Shown one piece after another: positions 39,534 through 54,040 of a DNA stretch of 64,000 nt. The stretch is from Oligoflexia bacterium. Its GTDB lineage: Bacteria; Bdellovibrionota; Bacteriovoracia; Bacteriovoracales; Bacteriovoracaceae. Each line of letters opens with the position of its first letter. Positions within the stretch are counted from its first letter, which is position 1. The notes below the pieces were generated by a model. It was not told the origin of the DNA. It did not search any database and saw nothing but the letters and a program-made list of their open reading frames with translations. The DNA is taken from contig JADGAN010000009.1 of NCBI GenBank assembly GCA_015231955.1, positions 1-64,000 on the forward strand, in the 5' to 3' direction. The position numbers and the translations under genes are program-made.

Positions 39534-39624
39534 GGAGAGATGCCGGAGTGGTCGATCGGGCCGGTTTCGAAAACCGGTGTAGTACTTTGTACTACCTAGG
39601 GTTCGAATCCCTATCTCTCCGCCA
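39534..39624 (+). tRNA. tRNA-Ser(CGA)
   Basis: A 91-base gene including encoded CCA. Acceptor GGAGAGA (39534-39540) pairs with TCTCTCC (39614-39620); the anticodon stem CCGGT/ACCGG frames the loop TTCGAAA, anticodon CGA; a long variable arm (GTAGTAC/GTACTAC) is typical of tRNA-Ser; T-arm GGGTTCGAATCCC. It is at the border where accessory DNA begins, a common integration site. Confidence 0.95.
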
Positions 39625-39979: not shown

Positions 39980-40399
39980 ATGAATTCAAGTATTAACTCA
40001 GAGTACATTTTGACTGAACTTTTTAAACTTCTTACCATTGAGTTTATACACCCTAACTTTGTGCATAAAATATTGAAAGTCATTGTGGCATATCTGACTT
40101 TAAAAGGTAGAAGCATGTATGATGACGAAGAAATAAGAAGCATTGTCCATTCATTGCAAAATAACTATACGTTAAAAGATGATAAAGAATATATCCAAGA
40201 AGAACTATCCCCTATTCTTGTTTCAGAGGTAGGGTTAACACAGGATGAAGCATTGATTTGTCATTCTTATATAGTGATTGTCTTCCTTCAACTGGGGATT
40301 GCAATGAAAAAAAATATCTCGCCCCTAGAACGAGACATTGAGTGCCATCTGGTTTTTGTAAAGTGCTCGGAAGAAACATCAATAGAAAAAACTGAATAG
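39980..40399 (+). CDS. Hypothetical protein, 139 aa
   Basis: Not recognised. Mostly helical and acidic, with no signal peptide; a hydrophobic stretch near residue 110 (SYIVIVFLQLGIAM) could be buried or membrane-bound. AGGAGA ribosome site lies a few bases downstream of a perfect palindrome. It is the first gene in the island and is alone on its strand, next to a convergent radical-SAM remnant. Confidence 0.6.
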   Translation: MNSSINSEYILTELFKLLTIEFIHPNFVHKILKVIVAYLTLKGRSMYDDEEIRSIVHSLQNNYTLKDDKEYIQEELSPILVSEVGLTQDEALICHSYIVIVFLQLGIAMKKNISPLERDIECHLVFVKCSEETSIEKTE

Positions 40400-40580
40400 G
40401 CTTAACACTACTAAGAAAATGCTCCTCACCGAAAGTTAATGTCGAAAGTAATCTTGAACAATCTAATTGGCTTTGTTTTGGAGTTTTAGAGAATTTATAC
40501 CCACTCTAATCCCCAGCTATATCTCAGAAAACCCATTTGCATAGTCAATGCAGATCAATTTAAATCTATAATTAAAGACC

Positions 40581-40858
40581 CTACAACTTAGATTGCATGT
40601 GTCTAGCATCTGTGACATCAGCACATCTAGCAGTCCTACCTAAAATATCCCCGCTCATAAATAGGGCCTCTCCTCTACATCCACCAGCACACTTTTTATT
40701 GGAGCTACAACTACCACACCCATCCATATCAGTGACTGGCCTTTTAAGTAGCTCTCTTAGGCTTAGGAATTGAGGTGATATTGACCAAAGATCTATCAAG
40801 GAATCAGTAACAACGTTTCCTATCTTAGTTTGCTCAAAGGTCATGGAGGTACAACACT
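40581..40858 (-). pseudogene. SPASM-domain fragment of a radical SAM enzyme
   Basis: The frame reads CCTSMTFEQTKIGNVVTDS then GCGSCSSNKKCAGGCRGEA and a final RCADV. This Cys spacing (CxxCxxxxxCxxxC...C) and IGNV.. DSL.D.W pattern are the C-terminal auxiliary Fe-S (SPASM) domain of peptide- or sugar-modifying radical SAM enzymes. The CxxxCxxC core domain is absent, and a stop lies just upstream in frame. So it is a 5'-truncated remnant, different from the intact radical SAM gene at 48768. Confidence 0.7.
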
Positions 40859-40898
40859 GTTCTCAGTTTTCCTTGGAGAGAAGCATCTTGTTAAGTCT

Positions 40899-42092
40899 TT
40901 ATTTCAGGTCATTTACGATATCATCAACAATATTAACTACCCCGCTATTTTTAATTGAAAAATGATCTTGGGTCAGCTTTGATGGGGACGAATAAATAAA
41001 ATCAAAAACATCTTGTATTAACCGATCCTGTTCATCAGTAGAGTTTAAAAAGAATTCAAGACATTCACTATTCTTAGCAATCCCTTCCATTTCAGGCAAT
41101 CCCTCTGGAATTAATGGATATCCTCGATTGCTTTCCCAGTTGAAAAAATTAATTTGGTCTAAGTTGTCTTGATAGATTCGAAGCTGCAATGCCTGCGAAT
41201 AATTTTGAGGAGGTAGAAAGAAAACATCTTTTTCATAATAACACATTTCATAAAAGGTCGTGATCCCCGATCCAGCGATCACTTTATCTGCACTGGCCAT
41301 TAATGATAAAAATTCGAATTTATCAAATACATCAATAGTTAAATTTTTAAAACCTGAGTAATTGTTTTTTAAAAATTCAATAGTATTCCCGCCACCTGCT
41401 ACTATGAATTCGTGCTTAGAAAAATCTTTGTGGGTGACAAGAGAATTCATGAAACATTGGCAAAATTTTGATGTTTTACTATAGATATTATCGATGCCTC
41501 CAAATGTAATAAGATTTATAGGTCTTTTGTTTTCCGATAGTTCAGGTTGAGGGTTAGGCATATCTATGGGAATCAAGGGAGGCACTACCTTTGGATTGTT
41601 AACCTTTTCACTGAACTTTTCCAATGCCTCTTTAGTTCCAAAAAAATCTTGAATATAATACGTATCAACGGTATTAAAATCGGCCAGCAGTTTATCCCAC
41701 ATCCAAAACAAGGTATCGATATATATTTTTTTTATAGGGATATCTTGCAAATATTTAATCGAATTAGGATTTGTGTTTGAAATATAGAGTGAGCAATTTT
41801 CGATCAATGATCTGTGCTGAGACAACTCTTCGGTACTAGTGGTATTGCACTCTATCACCTCATCAAATAAATTACTTTTTTGACCTAATTGGAGAGAAGT
41901 TAGAGTGCCCAACAGGACAAATCTATATTGGGGATCAACCTTTTTTCTAAGTTCTTTTGCAAGTGACAATGTGGTTGATATAGGTCCAAAACAAAAAGGT
42001 TCAGCATCAAATATAATCGTCTTTTGTGTTTTATAATTATTTGGTAAAAAAAATATCATTTGTGAATCTTTAGGTTTAATCTCTTGAGTCAT
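40899..42092 (-). CDS. GT-B glycosyltransferase (MurG/GT28-like)
   Basis: 397 residues. The N-terminal half begins IIFDAEPFCFGPISTTLSLAKEL, a Rossmann-like acceptor domain; the C-terminal half has LITFGGIDNIY, EFIVAGGGNT, and MASADKVIAGSGITTFYEM with VFFLPP, the nucleotide-sugar loop of MurG-type enzymes. It probably transfers a sugar or joins a base to an activated sugar. It is the last intact gene of the biosynthetic operon and overlaps the gene before it by 17 bases. The substrate is not known. Confidence 0.7.
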   Translation of the reverse strand: MTQEIKPKDSQMIFFLPNNYKTQKTIIFDAEPFCFGPISTTLSLAKELRKKVDPQYRFVLLGTLTSLQLGQKSNLFDEVIECNTTSTEELSQHRSLIENCSLYISNTNPNSIKYLQDIPIKKIYIDTLFWMWDKLLADFNTVDTYYIQDFFGTKEALEKFSEKVNNPKVVPPLIPIDMPNPQPELSENKRPINLITFGGIDNIYSKTSKFCQCFMNSLVTHKDFSKHEFIVAGGGNTIEFLKNNYSGFKNLTIDVFDKFEFLSLMASADKVIAGSGITTFYEMCYYEKDVFFLPPQNYSQALQLRIYQDNLDQINFFNWESNRGYPLIPEGLPEMEGIAKNSECLEFFLNSTDEQDRLIQDVFDFIYSSPSKLTQDHFSIKNSGVVNIVDDIVNDLK

Positions 42093-42909
42093 TGGTGAGT
42101 TCCCGTGGTTGATGAAAAAATAAAAAATATTTCCGCTCCCATTGGAGATAAGAATTACTTGGGTTTTTTAAGTTATATTGTGGTGTAGGATGAAAGCTTT
42201 GTCCGATGCCTTCTTTTTGTAGCTTGTCTATTGATGAGTTAATTGATGTCTTCTGTAAAACTGTCCGTAAGGGAGCTGACCTGTTAGATCTGGTGTTAAA
42301 TCTATTTTCAGTTAAATTAATAACTCTATCGTGCGACAATCGTTCAAAAAGAGCACCGGATGAGGAAAAATTTTTGCTAGCAATTTTTTTTAATAATTCG
42401 AGTAAAGTATTATACTCATCTAAATCAGTATTGATATTTGAAAAAGCTATGGCACCACCACTGTTTATTAATTTCCGCCCATTAAATGAGATATAAGACC
42501 GATGTGCTTTTGAAATTTGTAATGAAAAATCATACTCACCATAGGACTGCGCCAGATCTAAAAAAATTTTAAATTGACTATTGTAATTGTAATATTTATT
42601 CAAAATAAGATCTACATTAGGATCAATATATCCTAGTGGATGTGCTAGCAGGAGCACGCATTGATGTTCATTGTATTGTTGAAGCAATTTCAATAGCTCT
42701 AATACATCTAGCTGACATGGAATAGAAGAAGATTCTGGAGAACAAACTGGATAAAAAAGAGGGATCCATCCAGCATTAATAACAGATTCACTCATCGCAT
42801 AGCAAATCCACTCAGGTAGCAAGCACACTCCATTACTTGAAATATTTTTCAGATCTTCAGTAAAAGCAAAGCGGACAGATGGATAATTCGTCTTCATTTT
42901 CTCTGTCAT
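42076..42909 (-). CDS. Short DegT/DnrJ-like PLP-fold protein
   Basis: 277 residues. A core resembles sugar aminotransferases: SVINAGWIPLFYPV, a VLLLAHPLGYIDPN segment, IFLDLAQSYGEYDF (family IED.AQ..G), and SYISFNGRKLINSGGAIAF, where Lys of GRKL is the candidate PLP Lys. It is about 100 residues shorter than family members and lacks the usual N-terminal substrate segment and much of the C-terminal domain. It could be inactive, a partner of the full-length aminotransferase at 45163, or act on a different carrier. Four-base overlap with the upstream gene. Confidence 0.5.
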   Translation of the reverse strand: MTEKMKTNYPSVRFAFTEDLKNISSNGVCLLPEWICYAMSESVINAGWIPLFYPVCSPESSSIPCQLDVLELLKLLQQYNEHQCVLLLAHPLGYIDPNVDLILNKYYNYNSQFKIFLDLAQSYGEYDFSLQISKAHRSYISFNGRKLINSGGAIAFSNINTDLDEYNTLLELLKKIASKNFSSSGALFERLSHDRVINLTENRFNTRSNRSAPLRTVLQKTSINSSIDKLQKEGIGQSFHPTPQYNLKNPSNSYLQWERKYFLFFHQPRELTNDSRD

Positions 42910-44342
42910 AATTTTGTAATCTCAAGGTGACATCTATCATTTGAGTGATTAGAAAATTGATCGTAGATAGCACTATTTCTCCCCCATAAATCAATGTAGA
43001 GACTTTTTCCAAGATCATCAGTTAGTCTTTCTTGCCATAAGGCCTCGACATGTTGCCTTAATGTATAGATTCCCAAGGAGTGCTTTTTACCTCTATCAGA
43101 GCAGCCCCATTTAACTGCAAACCATTTTCCTGACAGAGAAGTTCTCATCATTAATGAAAAGGCTTCGGGCCTATTATTGATGCTTGTAATAACAAGGGAA
43201 CAGTTTGCTGGGGAGTTATTGAAGAATGGTACATATTGAAGATCTTCTCTATTTAAGGATCTCATATTGCTCTTTTCTGTACTCTTCCAGCTATTGTCGT
43301 CAATTGCAAGTGCCTTTGAATAAAGTTCAAGTGCCCTCATGTCATTTGCAGAAGAGTATTCAGTTTTGAGATTAAGATCTTTCCAAGCTGAGCTATTTCT
43401 TGCAATAGTTCTCTTTAGTCGAGTAGGAAATGAAGCTACATATGACTCAAAACCAAGATTTTGTCTTATAATTATCTGAGGATTTTTCCAGCAATCAATG
43501 ATTCTTAGATTTATTTTTCCTTGTAATTCCAAATGTGTTATTTTTTTTAAAAACACACTTTCTTTGTTGATGTATTTGGCCCGTATTTTTATGCCAGCAC
43601 ATAGGTTGTTATTAAAGAATTCTATAAACGCATTTTCATATCCATCTAGGTTAAAATAAGAGTTTAGCAAGAGAGTATCTTTGCTTTCTTTGCTGAAAAG
43701 TATTTTTTCGTTTAAGCTGATTAGATCATCACTAGAGAATCTTGATTTAACACCGTCCGACCAGTTTTCTGTAAGAGTAATGTTGTCATGGTTCCTATCA
43801 GTAGCATATAGTAGATCCTCCAACATTATGCTGATATTATATTCAATAGATTTATCGGCGTTGATGATTTCAGATGTGCTGATTTTGTATGTTTGTAGCT
43901 TGAAATCATTATTTACTTCAAATAATCTCTCTTCTGGCAGAATATCAAAAGGATCCCTGGTGTTATTGCGTTGGATTTGATTAGATAGAGAGCATTGCAG
44001 CTGATAAAAACGAAAATAAGAGAATTTACTTGCTAAATTTTCTATCCACTTTAATTCGTCGTCATATACAAAAACACCATCGATAATAACAACATCAGGC
44101 GATTCTTCATTGAGTTTTATGGTAACGATATCGATTAGCTTTTTCGTAGTGCTATAAATTAAATCACGATCTAAATCTCTTGTGATGTTCAAAGAGGCCA
44201 AGACGTCATCCCAATGTACTGAGCTAACAGCAAGTGACTTATCTTGAAGTCCTTTTTTTAGCTCATTTGCAAGTGTAGTCTTCCCAACACCAGGAGGTCC
44301 ACTTATTGCAATTAAGCAAGAAGCTGATTTGACTGTTTCCAT
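42906..44342 (-). CDS. P-loop kinase fused to a GNAT/BioF2-like domain
   Basis: 478 residues. N-terminal domain (about 1-190): Walker A AISGPPGVGKTTLANEL, HWDD and VVIIDGVFVYDDE fit small-molecule kinases of the uridine-kinase/AAA_18 type. C-terminal domain (about 200-478): SWKDL, DDNSWKSTEKS and AFSLMMRTSLSGKWFAVKWG resemble BioF2/CelD-like GNAT acyltransferases. The combination is one I do not recall. In a natural-product operon it may phosphorylate and acylate an intermediate, or inactivate the end product. Overlaps both neighbours. Confidence 0.55.
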   Translation of the reverse strand: METVKSASCLIAISGPPGVGKTTLANELKKGLQDKSLAVSSVHWDDVLASLNITRDLDRDLIYSTTKKLIDIVTIKLNEESPDVVIIDGVFVYDDELKWIENLASKFSYFRFYQLQCSLSNQIQRNNTRDPFDILPEERLFEVNNDFKLQTYKISTSEIINADKSIEYNISIMLEDLLYATDRNHDNITLTENWSDGVKSRFSSDDLISLNEKILFSKESKDTLLLNSYFNLDGYENAFIEFFNNNLCAGIKIRAKYINKESVFLKKITHLELQGKINLRIIDCWKNPQIIIRQNLGFESYVASFPTRLKRTIARNSSAWKDLNLKTEYSSANDMRALELYSKALAIDDNSWKSTEKSNMRSLNREDLQYVPFFNNSPANCSLVITSINNRPEAFSLMMRTSLSGKWFAVKWGCSDRGKKHSLGIYTLRQHVEALWQERLTDDLGKSLYIDLWGRNSAIYDQFSNHSNDRCHLEITKL

Positions 44343-45169
44343 AGCTTCATAACCTCAGAAATAGATAGATCACCGAAGAGAGATCGGTAATAGTTGTTAA
44401 ATAATTCCTTGCTTTCATGGGAGGGAACAGCACGAGATTTTATTTGCAATTCTGTAGAGCGCAGTTCAATTTTATGATTGCGATTCCCCATGCACATTTC
44501 CTTTCCTTGTCTGTTGGGAGCAGGCAAGTAATGTACACTTTGTATGTTTGTGGCCATAGTCTTCTTAATTACAAGATTAATGGCCCTTTGCTGGGTTAAG
44601 TTTTCTACAAGTAAAACTTTTTTTTCTTCACCAATTATTTGTTGAAAAAACAATGGGTGATAAAGGGAAATGTTGCGGTAATAGACTTCAATCATTTGAT
44701 CTTTTTCAATTGTGCCATAGGGATAATCTGAAGATTTTTCTATCCCATAAAGACCATATAATTCAGATTCTTCAATGCAATTTTTCAATGATAAGCTAAT
44801 CTCATTCACTATGCTCTTAAATTGCCCATTTCCTGTATCAGCGATGATAATTTTAGGCAAGGAATGTCCTGTCTTTGTCAAAAGCGCATTGATACCATTT
44901 TTGAGGTATTCAATCATGGTTTTATAATCGGCCGACGTGGGGTCAAAAGACATTACATCCTTCATCAAATCAGACTCATAGGTTTGAATATATAACATCA
45001 GAGGTTTGTTGAAAATTGATGCTACCATAGCAGGGATCAGGCAATCGACTAAATCCTGCAGTTGTAAACGAAGTGGATTTCCCTTCGCAAAGCAGACACA
45101 AGGACCTCCCGCAATGAGATCAGCACTAATGGCATTTAAATTTCTTGCTGATAAGATAAGGTCTAGCAA
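44312..45169 (-). CDS. Class I aminoacyl-tRNA synthetase-like protein (TrpRS/TyrRS-like), signature motifs lost
   Basis: 285 residues. The layout resembles the TrpRS/TyrRS catalytic domain: a GNPLRLQLQDLVDCLIPAM stretch where HIGH-bearing segments lie, then KPLMLYIQTYESD, a central helical part, VLLVENLTQQRAINLVIKK where these enzymes have the (G)Q-D-Q-R region, and PAPNRQGKEMCMGNRNHKI where KMSKS and a following Asn lie. Both HIGH and KMSKS are degenerate and there is no anticodon-binding domain. In blasticidin S synthesis a TrpRS-type protein (BlsK, as I recall) joins leucine to the nucleoside. A similar ATP-dependent or tRNA-dependent aminoacyl transfer is my inference; homology rests on pattern only. 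Confidence 0.4.
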   Translation of the reverse strand: MLDLILSARNLNAISADLIAGGPCVCFAKGNPLRLQLQDLVDCLIPAMVASIFNKPLMLYIQTYESDLMKDVMSFDPTSADYKTMIEYLKNGINALLTKTGHSLPKIIIADTGNGQFKSIVNEISLSLKNCIEESELYGLYGIEKSSDYPYGTIEKDQMIEVYYRNISLYHPLFFQQIIGEEKKVLLVENLTQQRAINLVIKKTMATNIQSVHYLPAPNRQGKEMCMGNRNHKIELRSTELQIKSRAVPSHESKELFNNYYRSLFGDLSISEVMKLWKQSNQLLA

Positions 45170-46314
45170 AACAGACTCCTTAATTTTCTAGTAAGTAATG
45201 AAAAATCATCATCATCTAAGAGTATTGGTAGCGATATTCGCTCAGTGCAGATCTGATTGGAAACCGGACATATCTGTTGCTGAAGTGTCTTTAAACTCCA
45301 AGGGAATCCATCACCATATGGAGATAATCGCTGCTTGATTATAGGATTTTCCTGAAGGTTCCAATGAGTCCAATTTGAATGAGGAATTTTGTGTTGTCTG
45401 AAAACTTCAGCAACATTTATATCCTCAATCCATAAGGATACAAAATTATCAGAAGAAGCACGCTCAATGAAATGTACTTTCCCAGTTAGAATATTTTTTA
45501 TTTCGGTATATTTATCTTTTAGGCTTTTTTGAATATTAACTAGTTTTTCAAACTGAGCATTGATAACAGCAGAAGTTATATTGGTTGCCTTAGCGTTACC
45601 TCCAAAAAATGAATGTTCATTCCACAAAGGCAATCCATTATCTTTTCTTGAGCAACCATGGTCGGTATATTTTTTTGCATTATCAAATAAGTTCACGTCA
45701 TTGCCAATCAGCACGCCTCCTTCCCCTGAACTTAAAATCTTATTAGATTGAAAACTAAAACAACCTAGCTCTCCAAAAGTTCCTAGAAATTTATCCCCTG
45801 ATCTTGCTCCAAACGATTGAGAAGCATCTTCGATAAGGACAATGTCATTTTCTTTGCAGATATTGCTAATTTCCTGGATTTTACCTCCATGACCTTCAAG
45901 ATGTACAAAAATCACTGCTCTTGGTTTTGGATTGTTCTTTAAATAGTTACTGAGCATTATTGGGCATAGATGTCCTGATTTATCTACATCAATCATTATC
46001 GGAATTAATCCAACAGAGAGCACTGCATTTGCAGTGGCGATAAAGGAGATCCCTGGAATCAGCACAACATCCCCAATAACGGGTTTAGTTGCGACTATGG
46101 AAGCTTGAAGAGCAAAAGTAGCATTGGCCATAACCAATGAATGTGAGCATCCTAGGAAATTTGTTATCTTTCTTTCCAATTTGGCTGAGATGTTTTCTTC
46201 TTTTCCATACCGAAAAAGATCTCCAGAACTAACAATCTCCTTGGTAGCATCAATCTCACTAGCATCTATTTGAGATTGTCCTAAATAATATGGTAAGTGT
46301 TTAAACCCCTTCAT
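45163..46314 (-). CDS. DegT/DnrJ/EryC1/StrS-family PLP aminotransferase
   Basis: 383 residues, family length. FLGCSHSLVMANATFALQAS, VLIPGISFIATANAVL, IFVHLEGHGG, LIEDASQSFGA and the PLP Lys in FSFQSNKILSSGEGG are intact. These enzymes aminate keto-sugars or keto-amino acids in antibiotic, LPS and nucleoside pathways. The last residues (SRKDNGLPLWNEH, PILLDDDDF) are unremarkable. Starts within the end of the MFS gene, 14-base overlap. The likely substrate is a keto-sugar made by earlier enzymes of the operon. Confidence 0.92.
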   Translation of the reverse strand: MKGFKHLPYYLGQSQIDASEIDATKEIVSSGDLFRYGKEENISAKLERKITNFLGCSHSLVMANATFALQASIVATKPVIGDVVLIPGISFIATANAVLSVGLIPIMIDVDKSGHLCPIMLSNYLKNNPKPRAVIFVHLEGHGGKIQEISNICKENDIVLIEDASQSFGARSGDKFLGTFGELGCFSFQSNKILSSGEGGVLIGNDVNLFDNAKKYTDHGCSRKDNGLPLWNEHSFFGGNAKATNITSAVINAQFEKLVNIQKSLKDKYTEIKNILTGKVHFIERASSDNFVSLWIEDINVAEVFRQHKIPHSNWTHWNLQENPIIKQRLSPYGDGFPWSLKTLQQQICPVSNQICTERISLPILLDDDDFSLLTRKLRSLFC

Positions 46315-47536
46315 GTGCTTTGTCCTTTTTCTTAAAGAAAATCTTGGCCTCAGATAGCATGAATAGCAAAATACAGATCACACCAACGATTGCGAAACTA
46401 GTTCTCACCCCACTGCAAACTTGTTCATCACTAAAGAAGGAAAGATAAAACGATGTAATGGGAATTGCAAAACGACTAAGTAGTTGCGAAACAGAAAAAA
46501 GTCTACTGTGAATACCCTTGTGTTCGCATTCATATACTTTGTTCATGAATAGTATATTGAAAGCAATTAGTGTCGTGTTAAATAATGAGTATGAAATGAT
46601 TTTTGCAATAAGTCCTTGAAACGCAAAAAACGAGATCCCACTTAAAATAACCAAGATGATGATGCCTGAAAAATTATACTTTATAATCTCTGGAATGTGC
46701 TCTCTTATTCTCTGACCATTCAATAAGGTAGAGATTAAACCTGTACACAGATAAAATCCTGGTATTGCATATTGCCCCAAACTTCCGAGTTCACTGAAGA
46801 GGATGTAGGGTAGAGAAGACATAAGAAGGCTAATCGATAAAATCAAGAATGTCATTGAAAGAAAAAGATTCCTCCAGAATAGATCTTTCTTGATAAAATT
46901 AACAAAGGCCAGCGTGTTCATCTTTTTAGCTACTTGTGAGTTGTCTTGAGTATCTCGCCTGAAGTTAAATAAAAGATAAGCAATAATTGCATAAGGTAAA
47001 AACGAAAAGATATTCAACTGAGTAAGGAATAACATGTTTTTAGAATTCACTGAAAGAGTTCCTAAGGCCGGAGCAAATATTCCGATCAAGGTTGCTGCAA
47101 CTGTAATCTCCTGTGAGACTATTTTTGCGTCTTTGGTTTTGTTCTCTGGTAATTCATTAAATGCTATCCTTGACCAGGGGATTTCAAAGGCAAAGAGGAA
47201 TTGTAGTACAACAATGAATAGGCACTTTAGACCAAAGGACCAATCAAAATTAAAGGATAAAAACACGAGAATGGAAAAAACAATCTCAGCGCTAACTGCA
47301 TAAAACTTTAGCAACCAAATGTTTTTTGACTGATCGAGGATATGGGCCCAAAGGTATGTCCCTATGGCGGCAGCACTGAATATAATGGCCTGGATAATGA
47401 AAACCCATTTGCTCTCAATTTTACTCGCGAGTAAAAAATAGGGATAAGCAATAGCTAAAGCACAGGAACCAATCCCATTAATTACGAGAGCAAAACGAAA
47501 AAATACACTACTTTTGAAAATTTCAAATAACTTCAC
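46301..47536 (-). CDS. MFS-type transporter, 12 TM
   Basis: About 411 residues with roughly 12 hydrophobic segments (for example FFRFALVINGIGSCALAIAY, VFIIQAIIFSAAAIGTYLW, LFVISMTFL-type segments and FAIVGVICILLFMLSEA). It is a probable major facilitator exporter for the operon's product. GTG at 47536 gives a normal N-terminus (KLFEIFKSSVFFRF); a TTG at 47554 is alternative. It overlaps the ATP-grasp gene before it and the aminotransferase gene after it. Confidence 0.8.
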   Translation of the reverse strand: MKLFEIFKSSVFFRFALVINGIGSCALAIAYPYFLLASKIESKWVFIIQAIIFSAAAIGTYLWAHILDQSKNIWLLKFYAVSAEIVFSILVFLSFNFDWSFGLKCLFIVVLQFLFAFEIPWSRIAFNELPENKTKDAKIVSQEITVAATLIGIFAPALGTLSVNSKNMLFLTQLNIFSFLPYAIIAYLLFNFRRDTQDNSQVAKKMNTLAFVNFIKKDLFWRNLFLSMTFLILSISLLMSSLPYILFSELGSLGQYAIPGFYLCTGLISTLLNGQRIREHIPEIIKYNFSGIIILVILSGISFFAFQGLIAKIISYSLFNTTLIAFNILFMNKVYECEHKGIHSRLFSVSQLLSRFAIPITSFYLSFFSDEQVCSGVRTSFAIVGVICILLFMLSEAKIFFKKKDKAHEGV

Positions 47537-48764
47537 AATGAAACTCGCTGGCAAAATGATTTAACTTAGAAGCACAAGCATCTTCGCTATCCTCTTTCAA
47601 ATAGATGCGTCCTAACTCATGTAGGTAGCTATCAGATTCATACTCTTTTCCAATTTCAATATTTTGCTCTTTTTTTACAATTTTAGGATCGTTGAACTCA
47701 TCAATATTTGTACAACTAATCAATTTACCTTTTCCTGGAGTAAACGAGATCATTCCGGCCACATTGGATTTATATTGAGTGAGTGGCTGTGATCCACTTA
47801 ATGTTTCTCCATATATTTGCAAGGCATTCAAGTTTGTCGTCATGCTGTGAAATTCTATAAACGACATCCCAGGAGGACGAGCAGCTCCTTCGCAGAAATA
47901 TATTTGCTCATTTGGAGTTATAAAAAACTCCATGTGAGTAAGTCCGTCATCGTATTTAAATGCTTTGGCAATTTTTTGGTGGGCCTGTAATATCCTTTGA
48001 GAAATGGGATTAGTACGTTTTAAAGTGTGGGCCATAAAGTAAGCATTTTTGTTCTTTGCAATTGTTAGTAGATCTTGGACATAAACTCCGACTGAATAAA
48101 AGGCAGGTTCACCATCAGCTTGAGTAGTATCAATAAAATACAGATCTCCTGGAATAAATTCTTCAACTAAAAATTGATCCGATTCCAGTTTTTTTTCTTG
48201 CACATGCTGGTTGAGTACTTGGAAATTATCACAAACCTTTACGCCTTCAGAACCCCATAATTTTCTAGGCTTTAAAATATATTTATTAATTCCATTTAAC
48301 AAAGAAGGGTCATTCATGACATCGTGAAGAGCAAAAAATCTTGGTTGCAATACTCCGCTAGACGATGCAGTCTCTCTCATCAACAGTTTGTCGCGAAAAG
48401 CTTCTGCCTGTTTCTCTTTGATTCCTTCAAAATTAAAATAAGAATTAAGAAATCCTACTGTTTCAATGTTTTTTTCGCTCAAGCAAATAATTTGTTTACG
48501 GCAATCTGTTTTTTGCAAACGAATGATCTCTTCTATCTTTTCAATCCATGCTTTTGGATTGTCATAATCTTCTTCGACCATAATGGCCCAAGCTCCTGAC
48601 AAATCAGTAGTTTTTAGCCACTTTTCCTTTAACATCAAAATAACATTTTGCTTGTTCTTATAGAGTGTTTCTAAGAGGTATTTAGAATCGACGATATCTG
48701 CCATTAAAAAGATCAGGGTTTTCCCATCATTAAAATTTTTATCTTCTATAATAATCTTCTCCAT
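47523..48764 (-). CDS. ATP-grasp ligase
   Basis: 413 residues. ATP-grasp fold with YILKPRKLWGSEGVKV (nucleotide Lys and glycine loop), FLVEEFIPGDLYFIDT, and the metal-binding MEFFITPNEQIYFCEGAARPPG. This family (biotin-carboxylase-like carboxylate-amine ligases) forms amide or peptide bonds through acyl-phosphates. It is second after the radical SAM enzyme in the operon, three bases apart. It probably adds an amino acid to a core; the substrate is not known. Confidence 0.9.
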   Translation of the reverse strand: MEKIIIEDKNFNDGKTLIFLMADIVDSKYLLETLYKNKQNVILMLKEKWLKTTDLSGAWAIMVEEDYDNPKAWIEKIEEIIRLQKTDCRKQIICLSEKNIETVGFLNSYFNFEGIKEKQAEAFRDKLLMRETASSSGVLQPRFFALHDVMNDPSLLNGINKYILKPRKLWGSEGVKVCDNFQVLNQHVQEKKLESDQFLVEEFIPGDLYFIDTTQADGEPAFYSVGVYVQDLLTIAKNKNAYFMAHTLKRTNPISQRILQAHQKIAKAFKYDDGLTHMEFFITPNEQIYFCEGAARPPGMSFIEFHSMTTNLNALQIYGETLSGSQPLTQYKSNVAGMISFTPGKGKLISCTNIDEFNDPKIVKKEQNIEIGKEYESDSYLHELGRIYLKEDSEDACASKLNHFASEFHCEVI

Positions 48765-48767
48765 TTT

Positions 48768-49790
48768 CTATGCTAACTCCTGTTTAATACAATTGGCAGG
48801 ATCGCAACCTTTTACACAATGATGTCTTATCTCTGGAAACATTTCGCCCCTGAATTTCCGATATTTTTCTCCGTCCCAAATGTCTTTAATTCTATCTTCT
48901 ATGATATTTCCCATGATGTATTGCTGGTGATTTTCTCGGTACATAGTTGTATCACATGGATAAACATCTCCACTGACGGCATCAATGAACATGGTGTTGC
49001 TCGGTATGATACATGCTCTCTTGCTCGCAAGGTTATATTCGCCCTTGGAGGAAGAGATCCAGTTTTCTAAGCCGTTACCAAAAATCTTGTAAAATTTTCC
49101 AAGAAAAAAACCTTCTTTGATTAGTCCTTCTCTTAACAAAGATTCAATCTTTTTGTAAAAGATTTCAATTTGATCTATCGATACAAACAATTTGTTATAA
49201 TCTTTCATTGGAATTAGGTTTATACAATCTGCACCCAATGTCTTTGCAGTCAGGCACATTTTGTCTATGGTCTCAATGTTGTAAGAACTAACAACATGAT
49301 TAATGATTAAGATTATTTGAGGATGAGATGTTTTTATTCTTCTTATGGCCGAATGAAGGTTATCCTCGAGCCAAGGAATGCCTCTGCTTTTGGCATTAAG
49401 TGTTTCGTCAAAATGGTCAACTGAAAGATAAATTCGAGTAACGTTGTTATTAGCGATAAACTCAATATTTTCATCTGTGAGACAACGCCCATTTGTCGTG
49501 ATGGAAAAAGGAATTCTTCCTTTGCTGGCCAACAAGATTTGCTTAAACTCTTTGCTAAGAAAGCTTTCTCCTCCATGTAAATTAACATCGGTAAGAGGGA
49601 ACTCAATTAATTGTTCTACAAAATCTAGCACGGGTATTTTTTTATTGAATTGCTCTTTGCTTGTTTGCCACACATCACAGAATTCACATTTGGCATTACA
49701 AATATTATTCAATCGTATAAATACTTGCTCCAGCTGTGGAGACTGAGAGAGTTCTTCAGTTGTAAACCGTGACTGTATCTTGAAAATCAT
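48768..49790 (-). CDS. Radical SAM enzyme with C-terminal SPASM/twitch domain
   Basis: 340 residues. The [4Fe-4S]-SAM motif CNAKCEFC (about 33-40) is intact, followed by LHGGESFL and FSITTNGR strands. The C-terminal auxiliary domain has CIIPSNTMFIDAVSGDVYPC, IMGNIIEDRIKDIW and CVKGCDPANC, enough Cys for an extra cluster. In blasticidin-like pathways a radical SAM enzyme (BlsE) decarboxylates cytosylglucuronic acid; the same or another radical step on a sugar is possible here. The start overlaps the gene upstream by 35 bases. Confidence 0.92.
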   Translation of the reverse strand: MIFKIQSRFTTEELSQSPQLEQVFIRLNNICNAKCEFCDVWQTSKEQFNKKIPVLDFVEQLIEFPLTDVNLHGGESFLSKEFKQILLASKGRIPFSITTNGRCLTDENIEFIANNNVTRIYLSVDHFDETLNAKSRGIPWLEDNLHSAIRRIKTSHPQIILIINHVVSSYNIETIDKMCLTAKTLGADCINLIPMKDYNKLFVSIDQIEIFYKKIESLLREGLIKEGFFLGKFYKIFGNGLENWISSSKGEYNLASKRACIIPSNTMFIDAVSGDVYPCDTTMYRENHQQYIMGNIIEDRIKDIWDGEKYRKFRGEMFPEIRHHCVKGCDPANCIKQELA

Positions 49791-50307
49791 AAACCCTTCC
49801 TAAATTTTTAATTGTTACCTTGTCATCAATTTCTGCTATTGCGTTAATGACATCCAGTTGTAGCTGTGAATTCCATTGCTCTAACGAAGGAAGTGTTGAA
49901 TTAGATTTATAATAAATAATTTTGGCACTTGTCACGGTCCCCAGCCCTTCAACTAGGGGTGTTTTTACTCCTATATTGGTGTTAATCATAACGATGATAG
50001 GTTTTTTAAAAGCACTGGCCCAACCTAACTCCAAATGAACTCCATAGCTATGATCTGCAAAAGCGATGATTAGTTCACTCTCAATTACTCCTTGCATATC
50101 GAGTGATGTGCATTCAGCGCCTGACATCAACTCTTCTCCCCACTTTTCTCTTTCGATAGCACAAAAAACCTCATCAGCGATGGTATCTCTCAAGGATTTC
50201 AAAATATTTTGAATCGCATATTTTGCATCATCTATGATAAGATTGTTCTTATCTAGTAATGGTGTTATGGGGGTTGCTAAAAATACTTTTTTAAATTTTT
50301 TAATCAT
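49756..50307 (-). CDS. Nucleoside 2-deoxyribosyltransferase-like hydrolase (BlsM/MilB-type)
   Basis: 183 residues, first gene of the operon. KVFLATPITPLLD starts a Rossmann-like fold, then SELIIAFADHSYGVHLELGWASAFKKPIIVM, the conserved core of NDT-like proteins, whose Glu (HLELGWA) is the nucleophile candidate. In blasticidin and mildiomycin synthesis NDT-like BlsM and MilB hydrolyse CMP or hydroxymethyl-CMP to release the base. Another nucleotide substrate, or a SLOG-type signalling role, is possible. GGTAGGAATAATTT before ATG is a good ribosome site. Confidence 0.7.
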   Translation of the reverse strand: MIKKFKKVFLATPITPLLDKNNLIIDDAKYAIQNILKSLRDTIADEVFCAIEREKWGEELMSGAECTSLDMQGVIESELIIAFADHSYGVHLELGWASAFKKPIIVMINTNIGVKTPLVEGLGTVTSAKIIYYKSNSTLPSLEQWNSQLQLDVINAIAEIDDKVTIKNLGRVYDFQDTVTVYN

Positions 50308-50380
50308 AAATTATTCCTACCTGATTAGAACTTGCTCCTCGTGTATTTCGTTTATCTGCAAACGTTCAAAAAAATCTAAA

Positions 50381-50419
50381 TTGGCGCGAAATATATATCA
50401 GAGAAGTGTCGCGCGTCAA
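50381..50419 (-). promoter_or_regulatory. Promoter and operator-like inverted repeat of the biosynthetic operon
   Basis: On the minus strand TTGACG (50419-50414) and TATATA (50397-50392) are separated by 16 bp. TTGGCGCGA (50381-50389) and TCGCGCGTCAA (50409-50419) form an imperfect inverted repeat whose arms cover the -35 and the probable start site, with a 19-bp spacer, a classic repressor layout. It lies about 80 bp before the first gene. No regulator gene is adjacent. Confidence 0.65.
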
Positions 50420-50908
50420 ACAGATGTCACATGGTGTGTAAATATTACTTAATACGGTTCTCTTTTTTAAAAGCACCTCAAATATGGGTGTACTTAGAAC
50501 ATACCAATCCTATAAAAATCAATATTCGGATAAGCAGCGTAATTAGAAGTAGAACTAATGTGAGAAGAAAACTTGCAATGAATATGCCAGTGTTCAGTTG
50601 TTTGCTAATTGGCTGAAATTACACAAAGATGTTAATGGCCAGGAATTGTTCTGTTAGCATTTGACTCCCGCTGGAGAGAATCTTATTCCAGATTGAGAAT
50701 AAGTTCTACTAATTGATTTTTGTTTCGGAGAAATGGGTTCAGTAGTAATTTTTACATACCAATACAGACTACGTCAGGATAATCTTTACAAACTTTTAGA
50801 TGAAAGCTAGAAGCATAAGTTTTAGACGAAAGATACTTTTGCTTTTACGAGACATCAAATGCCTACTCTATTGAGCAGTTCAACTAAATCAGGAGCATAA
50901 AAATTAAT
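50420..50908. other. Intergenic stretch between the operon and the GNAT-phosphatase gene
   Basis: No gene is supported here. A 7-bp inverted repeat CTTATTC (50682-50688) and GAATAAG (50697-50703) is the only structure noted. AGGAG lies 14 bases before the ATG at 50909, farther than usual. Confidence 0.6.
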
Positions 50909-52066
50909 ATGAATAAAACTTCTACGGTTCAAGTACCACAAGGGACTATTGGTCAGAATTATATAACACCTGAATCAAGTGAGTGGCATACTTTTGTTAT
51001 GGCATCAAGTAACTATATATCCCACTACTGGCCAGAGGCCTTAGAATCAAAAACAATAAATCAATTTGCTGCTGGATACGAAGTTGAATTAAAGAAAAGA
51101 ATCCTTCAAGGAGGGAGAATTCTACTACTGTGGACACTTAACAGGGAATTGTTAGGTTTTGCAAACGCTTGGGTTGAAGGACGTATGTCCTTGCGGACAT
51201 TAAATATTGCTGAATTCCACGTACTGCCGACAGCGCAAAAAAAGGGTCTTGGCAAATCGCTCTTTCAACTTCTGTGCGATGAAGGACGACGTCATGGTGC
51301 ACGTAACATAAGGGCCGAAGTTGATAAGCACATGCAAGCGAACGGTTTCTGGAAGCACATGGGATTAACTCTTGACCCCAGCAGTGAAGATAGAAATATT
51401 TTTACTGGTAAATTAGAACCCATCCGCATAATTTTCATGAGACATGGTAAAATTGTTATCCCTCAGAGGGCCTATGAAGTATGTATTGACCAAAATAAGC
51501 TGACTTTACAAGACGATAATGCCTTGATGTTAGAAAAGTTAGCAGGCAACTTTAATTTAGACCATATACCTGTATCCACATCGCCATATGCACGTACCAA
51601 GCAAACAGCGACAGCTTTATTCAGCAAAGCATCTTTTTCTTCCCTCCAGGATAATGATGGCCTTGTAGAGTTCTTTCCTGAGGAGCTTTTTGGCAAAACC
51701 TGGGAGGAGATCAGCAAAGAATATGTTGGTGACATTGAAGAATTAACTTTATATGGAGATAGAGATACTCTTTTTCAAAATTCAGAAAAAACTTCTACTG
51801 CAAAAAATCGTATTGAACAGGCATGTTTGGATCTCGTTCATACAGCAAGCTTAAGGCCACTCCGCATGGCCGTTTCTCATCAAGGTATTCATGCTCTCCT
51901 AATTTTAAAAATATTAGGCGGAAGTGAATCAAAACGTCATGCAATCCAGCTCAACTATCTCTGTGCTACTGTCTTACAATACAATGGCGAAAGACAGGAA
52001 TTTGAGTTAGAGGTTCTAAACCAGCCCATTGAAAACATCTTACAGCATCTATCAGTAAGGAATTGA
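50909..52066 (+). CDS. GNAT acetyltransferase fused to histidine phosphatase
   Basis: 385 residues. N-terminal GNAT domain (about 20-165): LLGFANAWVEGR, AEFHVLPTAQKKGLGKSLFQ (acetyl-CoA loop), MQANGFWKHMGLTL. C-terminal histidine phosphatase (about 172-375): the phospho-His motif is IFMRHGK, then STSPYARTKQTATAL and AVSHQGIHALL. Each domain's motifs are intact. The gene diverges from the biosynthetic operon, so it may acetylate the product or dephosphorylate a protected form, a frequent self-resistance design. No family with this pair is known to me. Confidence 0.8.
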   Translation: MNKTSTVQVPQGTIGQNYITPESSEWHTFVMASSNYISHYWPEALESKTINQFAAGYEVELKKRILQGGRILLLWTLNRELLGFANAWVEGRMSLRTLNIAEFHVLPTAQKKGLGKSLFQLLCDEGRRHGARNIRAEVDKHMQANGFWKHMGLTLDPSSEDRNIFTGKLEPIRIIFMRHGKIVIPQRAYEVCIDQNKLTLQDDNALMLEKLAGNFNLDHIPVSTSPYARTKQTATALFSKASFSSLQDNDGLVEFFPEELFGKTWEEISKEYVGDIEELTLYGDRDTLFQNSEKTSTAKNRIEQACLDLVHTASLRPLRMAVSHQGIHALLILKILGGSESKRHAIQLNYLCATVLQYNGERQEFELEVLNQPIENILQHLSVRN

Positions 52067-52184
52067 ATCTGTGCTATTGAATGATTGCTGAGTACTCTAT
52101 AGAGAAATGGAGGAACTTAGCATTAGCACTCACTGAATTATTGAAGTACAATCTTTAATAAAAAATAATTCAACGGGTCACTCT

Positions 52185-52676
52185 ATGAAGCATCTCTCTT
52201 CTATTCTGCTAGGCACTCCCTGGTGGGGCTATGTCCTCCTTGCCTTTCTCATCTACTCAGGAGTTAAGGCCAGAAAATCATCTACCATACCGATCAAGAA
52301 GTTATTTGTTTTTCCAGCCATCTTCGTCATTTGGTCCCTATGCTCTTTGGTTAGCAAAGTCCTGGATTCTAATATGTCTTTAATCCTTATCTGGGTAGGG
52401 TTTGGAATCGTAAGCCATCTCCTTGGATTGAGATTTACCAGAGATGCCAACGTCCAAGTAGATCGTATGAATGGCCGCATAACCATTCCTAGTAGTGGTT
52501 GGGTGATGCTCGTGGTACTGATGGGCATCTTTGTTGTTAAGTACTATTTTGGATACTCCTATGCTACTGATCCTGCTGCGGCCAAGGTTTACTTGCTCCC
52601 GATGGATCTTGGATTTTCAGGACTCATCACAGGGGTCTTCTTCGGTAGGGCGTGGGGATACTACAAGAAGTATTAG
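52185..52676 (+). CDS. Small multi-pass membrane protein (DUF6622-like)
   Basis: 163 residues with about five hydrophobic segments (WWGYVLLAFLIYSGVKAR, LFVFPAIFVIWSLCSL, SLILIWVGFGIVSHLLGL, GWVMLVVLMGIFVVKYYFGY and LGFSGLITGVFFGRAWG). The segment GVKARKSSTIPIKKLF after the first helix is typical of a small family of unknown function that I recall as DUF6622. No ribosome site is strong. It is free-standing in the island. Confidence 0.65.
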   Translation: MKHLSSILLGTPWWGYVLLAFLIYSGVKARKSSTIPIKKLFVFPAIFVIWSLCSLVSKVLDSNMSLILIWVGFGIVSHLLGLRFTRDANVQVDRMNGRITIPSSGWVMLVVLMGIFVVKYYFGYSYATDPAAAKVYLLPMDLGFSGLITGVFFGRAWGYYKKY

Positions 52677-52808
52677 ATACACCTGATTATACAGACCGAA
52701 TCCCTCGAGTATGGCAGCTATTGCAAGAGACAAAAAAGTTTAAGTATTTTGAGTTATTAACCGTTATATTTTTTTGGAATCCATACATTTCTAACACATA
52801 GGACATAG

Positions 52809-53717
52809 ATGAATCAAAATTGTAGGCTTTTAAGGAAAAAAGAGAGCGCAAAATCAAATAAAGTTATTATCATTGGCAATGGTGCTATAGAAAGAGGGAG
52901 TGATCCTCTTGAAAAAACATTTGAAGACCTATTGCCAGCCAGTGAAGATAGCAATCATGCTGATTGGTATAGGAAAAATTTAAAAGACAAAAGCTTATTC
53001 TTATCATTGCTAAGTTTTAAATTTCGAATTTCTCGTTTAGAGTTGTTTCGAAAGATAGAAAAAAACGGAGGGTACTCTAAATGGGACAAAATATTTCCTC
53101 AACCAATCAGAACGTTCTTAGAATTGAGAAAAAAAATAGCCTCTAACTTTATAGATTTTAAAGAACAAAATAAAATATCATTAAGAGGTTCATTGAATAA
53201 TGGTTATTTCAACAAAAATGATCTCTTCATAACAACAAACTGGGATTCATTGATTTGGGATGATGAAGAGGTTTCAAATATTATTCAACTGCACGGGATT
53301 ACCAATTTTCCAGAAAGCATGATAATGCCAACTGAATTAATCACAGATGATCTTATGTATGACTTTTTAAAAATTTGCGATAAAGATTTGCTCGACTCAA
53401 TCACAAAAGGTGCATATTCTATGAGTGAAAGTGATTATCGTTTTATGGAATGTTACAGATTTAATTTTCTCACAGAGCTTACTCAAGCACATGATCTTTG
53501 CATAGAATGGATTTCTCGTGCTAATGAAATTGTTATATGGGGTTCATCTTTAAGTACTTATGATGCTGAATTATTAGCTCAAATCTCTACACATACAAAT
53601 GTCGATAAAATTGATAAAATTACGATCGTAAATCCATGCGACACAGCCTTGAATAAAGCAATATCAATTATTGGAGTATCGCCTAATAAAGTTACCAAAA
53701 TATCAAACCTAGAATGA
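52809..53717 (+). CDS. SIR2-like domain protein
   Basis: 302 residues. VIIIGNGAIERGSDPLEKTFEDL at the start, FITTNWDSLIWDDEE, IIQLHGITNFPESMIMPTE and the late EIVIWGSSLSTYDAELLAQI are the pattern of SIR2-like NAD-binding proteins (GNG, TTNWD, LHG, GSSLS). Such proteins act as NAD-depleting effectors in several antiphage systems. No partner (Argonaute, TPR, HerA or ThsB) is adjacent, so it could be a stand-alone defence gene or have another role. Confidence 0.7.
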   Translation: MNQNCRLLRKKESAKSNKVIIIGNGAIERGSDPLEKTFEDLLPASEDSNHADWYRKNLKDKSLFLSLLSFKFRISRLELFRKIEKNGGYSKWDKIFPQPIRTFLELRKKIASNFIDFKEQNKISLRGSLNNGYFNKNDLFITTNWDSLIWDDEEVSNIIQLHGITNFPESMIMPTELITDDLMYDFLKICDKDLLDSITKGAYSMSESDYRFMECYRFNFLTELTQAHDLCIEWISRANEIVIWGSSLSTYDAELLAQISTHTNVDKIDKITIVNPCDTALNKAISIIGVSPNKVTKISNLE

Positions 53718-53840
53718 TTATTTGTCTATATAACTTGATAAGACAACTCTTATGTAATATTCACCGTTCTATACCGTACAAAAATTCAGACCACGGAATT
53801 ATCTCAGAGTCGACAAAAACGAGCGCTTCAAATGATTTTC

Positions 53841-53878
53841 TCACCAAATCCATAATGATATTTATATGATTTTGGTGA
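53841..53878. repeat. Inverted repeat in gene-free stretch 53718-54040
   Basis: TCACCAAA (53841-53848) and TTTGGTGA (53871-53878) flank a 22-bp AT-rich centre; the whole 38 bp is an imperfect palindrome. It may be an operator or transcript hairpin. A TATAAT at 54006-54011 may be the -10 of the next gene. I see no other gene here. Confidence 0.45.
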
Positions 53879-54040
53879 CAATATTCAGTAGGAGTGTTGG
53901 TTTTTGAGAGGAAGATAACGCACAATCATTTTACGATCCCTACATCGAACAAGTTGTTGCGGTCTGCTTTCTAGCAATGGCCAACATCATCCATTTCCGA
54001 GATAATATAATCCCCACCATTAATGACAAGGAGGCCACAT

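Follow-up and report, generated by a model that had tools for sequence, protein, structure and literature searches.

The window analysed here, the first 64,000 nucleotides of contig JADGAN010000009.1 from an Oligoflexia bacterium (assembly GCA_015231955.1), carries a cluster of nine tightly packed genes, overlapping or adjacent, all on the minus strand and running from 50307 to 40899 (Table 1).

Table 1. Genes and associated features of the cluster, in the order in which the genes are read.
Feature	Position	Strand	Remarks
BlsM-like protein, nucleoside 2-deoxyribosyltransferase fold	49756..50307	-	183 aa; operon gene 1; PF05014 at 0.00075; predicted to convert CMP to cytosine
Radical SAM enzyme with SPASM domain	48768..49790	-	340 aa; PF04055, PF13186; in the place of BlsE, equivalence uncertain
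BlsI-like ATP-grasp ligase	47523..48764	-	413 aa; PF13535; BLAST 1e-6 to BlsI; hhalign 95.7%
Membrane transporter, MFS-like by length and hydrophobicity	46301..47554	-	417 aa; TTG start; without clear family match
BlsH-like DegT-family aminotransferase	45163..46314	-	383 aa; PF01041 at 3e-55; 34.6% to BlsH; hhalign 100%
Orphan protein (P0001)	44312..45169	-	285 aa; TTG start; sixth of nine operon genes
P-loop kinase domain fused to about 290 residues without relatives	42906..44342	-	478 aa
Protein without family match	42076..42909	-	277 aa
Cytosylglucuronate-synthase-like glycosyltransferase, BlsD/MilC-like	40899..42092	-	397 aa; last operon gene
Terminator-like hairpin with T run	40313..40339	-	Downstream of the operon

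The sixth gene, which we call the orphan, had been predicted to encode an enzyme resembling the aminoacyl-tRNA synthetases. It is a genuine protein-coding gene, because its codon usage agrees with its own frame only, as is the case for its eight neighbours, because an AAGGAG ribosome site lies seven bases 5' of its TTG start, and because the frame, which fills its coordinates with exactly 285 codons, overlaps both the end of the upstream aminotransferase gene and the start of the downstream kinase-fusion gene. Scans of Pfam, NCBIfam, PHROGs and PDB sequences gave the protein no significant match, and weak matches to Dicer, UvrC and pterin-synthase models in the family and profile scans were rejected as chance. 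No relatives were found among viral contigs, plasmids, phages or 368 genomes of the same phylum, nor in 84,980 genomes covered by a pattern-seeded search that reaches close relatives only. Such an absence of relatives is expected under fast divergence and would suit a decayed or non-catalytic protein, be it a subunit, a self-protection factor or a regulator, as would the adjoining 277-aa protein, which by eye also resembles a shortened enzyme; the intact frame, the neighbour-like coding statistics and the gene's own ribosome site nonetheless make this explanation quite improbable.

Two neighbours are unfamiliar as well. The best match of the kinase domain in the fusion protein is L-seryl-tRNA(Sec) kinase, and the remainder of about 290 residues looks GNAT-like by eye, a resemblance to which profiles lend no support. 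The 277-aa protein recalls by eye the large domain of a shortened DegT aminotransferase with a PLP lysine region (GRKLINSGGAIAFS), an unproven likeness for which profiles detect nothing.

The remaining genes bear out the original placing of the orphan in a biosynthetic operon. Five of the nine genes find matches in the blasticidin S/mildiomycin pathway, four of them as counterparts of BlsM, BlsD, BlsH and BlsI and the fifth, for BlsE, at superfamily level only. Because several independent genes have bls homologues, we infer that the operon encodes a divergent cytosine-nucleoside antibiotic pathway of the blasticidin S/mildiomycin type, an assignment that concerns the probable class of the product and from which its identity does not follow. 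Blasticidin-type nucleosides inhibit the ribosome and have been described from actinomycetes. A BlsM-like putative CMP hydrolase is present, with 54% identity to BlsM of a cluster from the same phylum (isolate BJ13, see below) and 33% to that of Kitasatospora. When the aminotransferase was compared with 72,556 plasmids, 321 records matched, and the best three were blasticidin/mildiomycin-type clusters, from Embleya, Kitasatospora and Streptomyces. The radical SAM enzyme scores 8e-10 against the BlsE model TIGR04466, with other radical SAM models scoring better, and reaches an hhalign value of 96% with BlsE, which places it at least in the radical SAM superfamily; the BlsD/MilC-like protein scores 2.8e-8 against TIGR04467, far below the cut-off, and 98.8% with BlsD in hhalign. 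Such low scores, well short of the curated cut-offs for both the radical SAM enzyme and the cytosylglucuronate-synthase-like protein, mean that the product may be quite unlike blasticidin. In role, the transporter corresponds to the MFS gene found in the bls cluster. In the same hhalign comparison with bls proteins, the orphan, the kinase fusion and the 277-aa protein had no match; these three additional genes are without a bls counterpart.

How does the cluster compare with known systems? It has BlsM, BlsD, BlsH and BlsI homologues, a radical SAM enzyme and a transporter in common with the bls clusters of Kitasatospora sp. NBC_00039, Embleya sp. NBC_00888 and isolate BJ13, although its shared proteins are only 20-35% identical to those of the actinomycete clusters. 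Unlike these clusters, that of the window lacks arginine 2,3-aminomutase, BlsF, BlsK and the methyltransferase BlsL, and contains three genes without counterpart, including the orphan. Arginine 2,3-aminomutase is a feature of blasticidin only, and elsewhere in the genome its search gave solely sub-threshold, KamA-type matches. BlsK likewise found no match in the window's genome, an empty answer that is weak because the search included no positive-control genome. The mildiomycin or beta-methylarginine-type cluster of Streptomyces sp. NBC_00467 (L031) has the same core enzymes as the window cluster, and in addition an AMP-binding enzyme and methylarginine genes that the window cluster lacks. The functions of the Mil and Bls proteins have been described (PMC11784345, PMC3715490). 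A search of the phylum's genomes with the TIGR04467 profile led to JACTMU010000063.1 (isolate BJ13), a contig of a non-actinomycete metagenome-assembled genome from the same phylum as the window, with a near-complete blasticidin S-type cluster. It comprises BlsM, arginine 2,3-aminomutase (5e-167), BlsH, a BlsI-BlsD fusion, BlsE (1e-100; 337 bits, short of the cut-off of 400), BlsK (37%) and a transporter. The window cluster is a divergent variant of a known pathway type, outside the actinomycetes, with three unfamiliar genes. Together with the BJ13 cluster, it suggests that the pathway extends to another phylum and has a broader distribution and greater chemical variety than so far described. 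A literature search combining blasticidin with Bdellovibrio, which lay mostly outside subscription journals, returned nothing relevant.

The original prediction likened the orphan to BlsK, which adds leucine in blasticidin S synthesis and was there taken for a TrpRS-class enzyme. This view does not hold for the 626-aa protein at the BlsK position of the Kitasatospora cluster, which we identify as BlsK from gene order and length: it has no similarity to the synthetases, its family profile finds no solved synthetase, and neither it nor its relatives have any Pfam or NCBIfam match. Four cysteines near its C-terminal end are conserved across three clusters and would suit an iron-sulphur cluster. 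In the family (L030, 15339-17219, and relatives) the conserved region near the end takes the form C-x-C-G ... C-x-R-C-G. BlsK is reported to be a tRNA- and [3Fe-4S]-dependent leucyltransferase. The 285-aa orphan has no sequence similarity to BlsK, and kinship with BlsK or BlsF was rejected, with an hhalign value below 1% for BlsK and no homology to the four-cysteine region. The comparison with blasticidin S therefore stands for the operon's kinship to that pathway and falls for the resemblance of BlsK to the synthetases or to the orphan.

With respect to the class I synthetases, the orphan is like the TrpRS/TyrRS catalytic domain in size and in the order of segments seen by eye, and by eye it can be aligned with archaeal TrpRS. 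It differs from that domain in having neither HIGH nor KMSKS, no significant profile match and no anticodon domain. Here the original prediction was accurate: the place expected for HIGH reads NPLRLQLQD, the nearest approach to KMSKS is GKEMCMGNRN, and the approximately 50-60 residues that follow the KMSKS-like place (GKEMCMGN) are too short for the usual anticodon-binding domain. Its central claim, of a segment order shared with the TrpRS/TyrRS catalytic domain, fared less well. HMMER with its filters off and hhalign were used to compare the orphan with four sorts of profile, those of archaeal/eukaryotic TrpRS, of bacterial TrpRS, of TyrRS and of cyclodipeptide synthases, and the scores were like those of the orphan's own shuffles; in the test for similarity of the degree that links TyrRS with TrpRS, the E values (17-78, Z 650) lay inside the shuffle range. 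Further tests aligned the orphan with profiles semi-globally and globally, with shuffles and real proteins as the reference, and by Smith-Waterman with each of 26 synthetase and cyclodipeptide synthase sequences, with 500 shuffles each. Across local and global alignments the scores were those of shuffles or barely better, and the best registers were mutually incompatible, as they would be by chance.

It is conceivable that the orphan is a very diverged, TrpRS-like class I catalytic domain from which HIGH and KMSKS have disappeared and which now passes an amino acid to the nucleoside, taking it from tRNA or an adenylate. Consistent with this are the colinearity seen by eye, two best local matches in a plausible register (orphan residues 59-94, containing the LYIQ block, to Pyrococcus TrpRS in Smith-Waterman, and residues 150-187 to the archaeal TrpRS profile, p ~0.03) and the global alignment to the archaeal TrpRS profile, which at z ~2 (p ~0.03) gave the best z of all. 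Natural product pathways also offer precedents for enzymes derived from class I synthetases in the IleRS-like aminoacyltransferase SbzA (PMC12945691) and the cyclodipeptide synthases, although SbzA retains the full IleRS architecture and the cyclodipeptide synthase profile has no match to the orphan. Against it, profiles built from 34 to 41 TrpRS gave global z values of only 0.0-0.7, at the level of shuffles, and best local matches in implausible registers; the methods disagree on the register, both motifs are absent, and the same test that catches TyrRS does not catch the orphan. We therefore regard this origin as unlikely.

The last of these points rests on a calibration. The TrpRS profile found the TyrRS of Methanocaldococcus jannaschii at 1e-28, and in the window's own genome it found a TyrRS (L016) at 5e-7. 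The match of the M. jannaschii query to the TrpRS profile shows it to be a TyrRS; the yeast TrpRS and AlbC queries proved identical to the PDB copies over nearly their whole length. Because the TrpRS profile finds TyrRS and scores the orphan like its shuffles, these sequence comparisons rule out ordinary TrpRS/TyrRS membership, in the sense of a similarity as great as that by which TyrRS and TrpRS still detect one another. The window's genome has two TyrRS-like genes (L014 and L016) and one TrpRS gene (L015).

The TrpRS profile also misses the cyclodipeptide synthases, so kinship as deep as theirs lies beyond these tests. These enzymes are thought to descend from class I synthetases (PMC2922099), use two aminoacyl-tRNAs and naturally have neither HIGH nor KMSKS, and the orphan would fit among them in its similar size and its missing motifs; they derive from TyrRS/TrpRS-like domains, and the mixed operons in which they occur also encode ligases and PLP enzymes (PMC2922099). 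The orphan scored at or below its shuffles against a profile of 12 cyclodipeptide synthases, however, and PF16715 matches nothing in the genome, which makes an enzyme of this kind highly improbable.

Structure prediction by AlphaFold without an alignment gave models of low confidence, with pLDDT 38 for the whole orphan and 39 for residues 16-245. In both, helices and strands alternate in the first half of the protein (pLDDT 50-60), and the weak beta-alpha-beta-alpha-beta order would agree with a TrpRS-like domain. A Rossmannoid fold could account for the alternation, as could many other folds. Searches for similar folds with these models, which are meaningless at such confidence, returned only chance-level matches, with no synthetase among the matches listed.

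Based on the gene content, we propose the following model for the pathway and for the order of its steps. The BlsM-like enzyme would free cytosine from CMP, and the BlsD-like enzyme would join the base to glucuronate to give cytosylglucuronate, whose sugar the radical SAM enzyme and the BlsH-like aminotransferase would turn into a 4'-amino sugar. The BlsI-like ATP-grasp ligase would then attach an amino acid by amide formation, and the transporter would export the product. The orphan would act at a late step on the amino-acid side chain, its likeliest activity there being a further or protective acyl or aminoacyl attachment, the job that BlsK performs with leucyl-tRNA in blasticidin S; the two proteins may possibly hold the same functional place in their pathways. 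The chemistry of the window cluster must differ at the points marked by its three genes without counterpart, and the orphan must contribute either a step that is not common to the known pathways or the replacement of one that was lost.

What, then, is the orphan? We favour, at slightly under an even chance, a pathway-specific orphan enzyme that carries out a late tailoring step in a divergent blasticidin S/mildiomycin-type pathway. In favour are the nine-gene operon in its low-GC surroundings, the bls homologues, the BJ13 cluster with its 54% identical BlsM, the missing match to BlsK in the genome, and the adjoining kinase domain with its nearest match in L-seryl-tRNA(Sec) kinase. That its step is a second acylation or a protective one is suggested by the absence of BlsK and by the decoration with amino acids that is a hallmark of the class; we consider this narrower proposal rather doubtful. 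The ATP-grasp ligase alone could form all the amide bonds, which counts against an attachment role for the orphan, and an unrelated tailoring activity is as likely or more. The protein may also belong to some other, perhaps new, enzyme family unrelated to the synthetases, such as a dehydratase, epimerase, oxidoreductase or hydrolase acting on an amino sugar or amino acid. The negative searches of the family databases and PDB sequences agree with such an origin, as does the sugar chemistry of a divergent pathway, which may require additional enzymes; no particular activity is positively indicated, and we give this explanation a substantial but less than even chance. The most far-reaching reading would have the orphan be a new tRNA-dependent, amino-acid-attaching family, derived from a class I synthetase beyond recognition by sequence, which acts alongside a seryl-tRNA-kinase-like fusion in decorating a cytosine nucleoside outside the actinomycetes. 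We regard this as a long shot; if true, it would add one family to the few aminoacyl-tRNA-dependent biosynthetic enzymes.

The operon also stands out from its surroundings in base composition, with a GC content of 34-37% against about 41-47% in the flanks, and looks like part of a horizontally acquired island. The stretch of low GC (34-37%) spans positions 40000-54000 of the window. At its left edge, about 1.3 kb past the operon's end, lies a tRNA-Ser(CGA) gene (39534-39624). On the other side of the operon, and divergent from it, a gene at 50909-52066 encodes a GNAT acetyltransferase fused to a histidine-phosphatase domain of the alpha-ribazole-phosphatase-like type.
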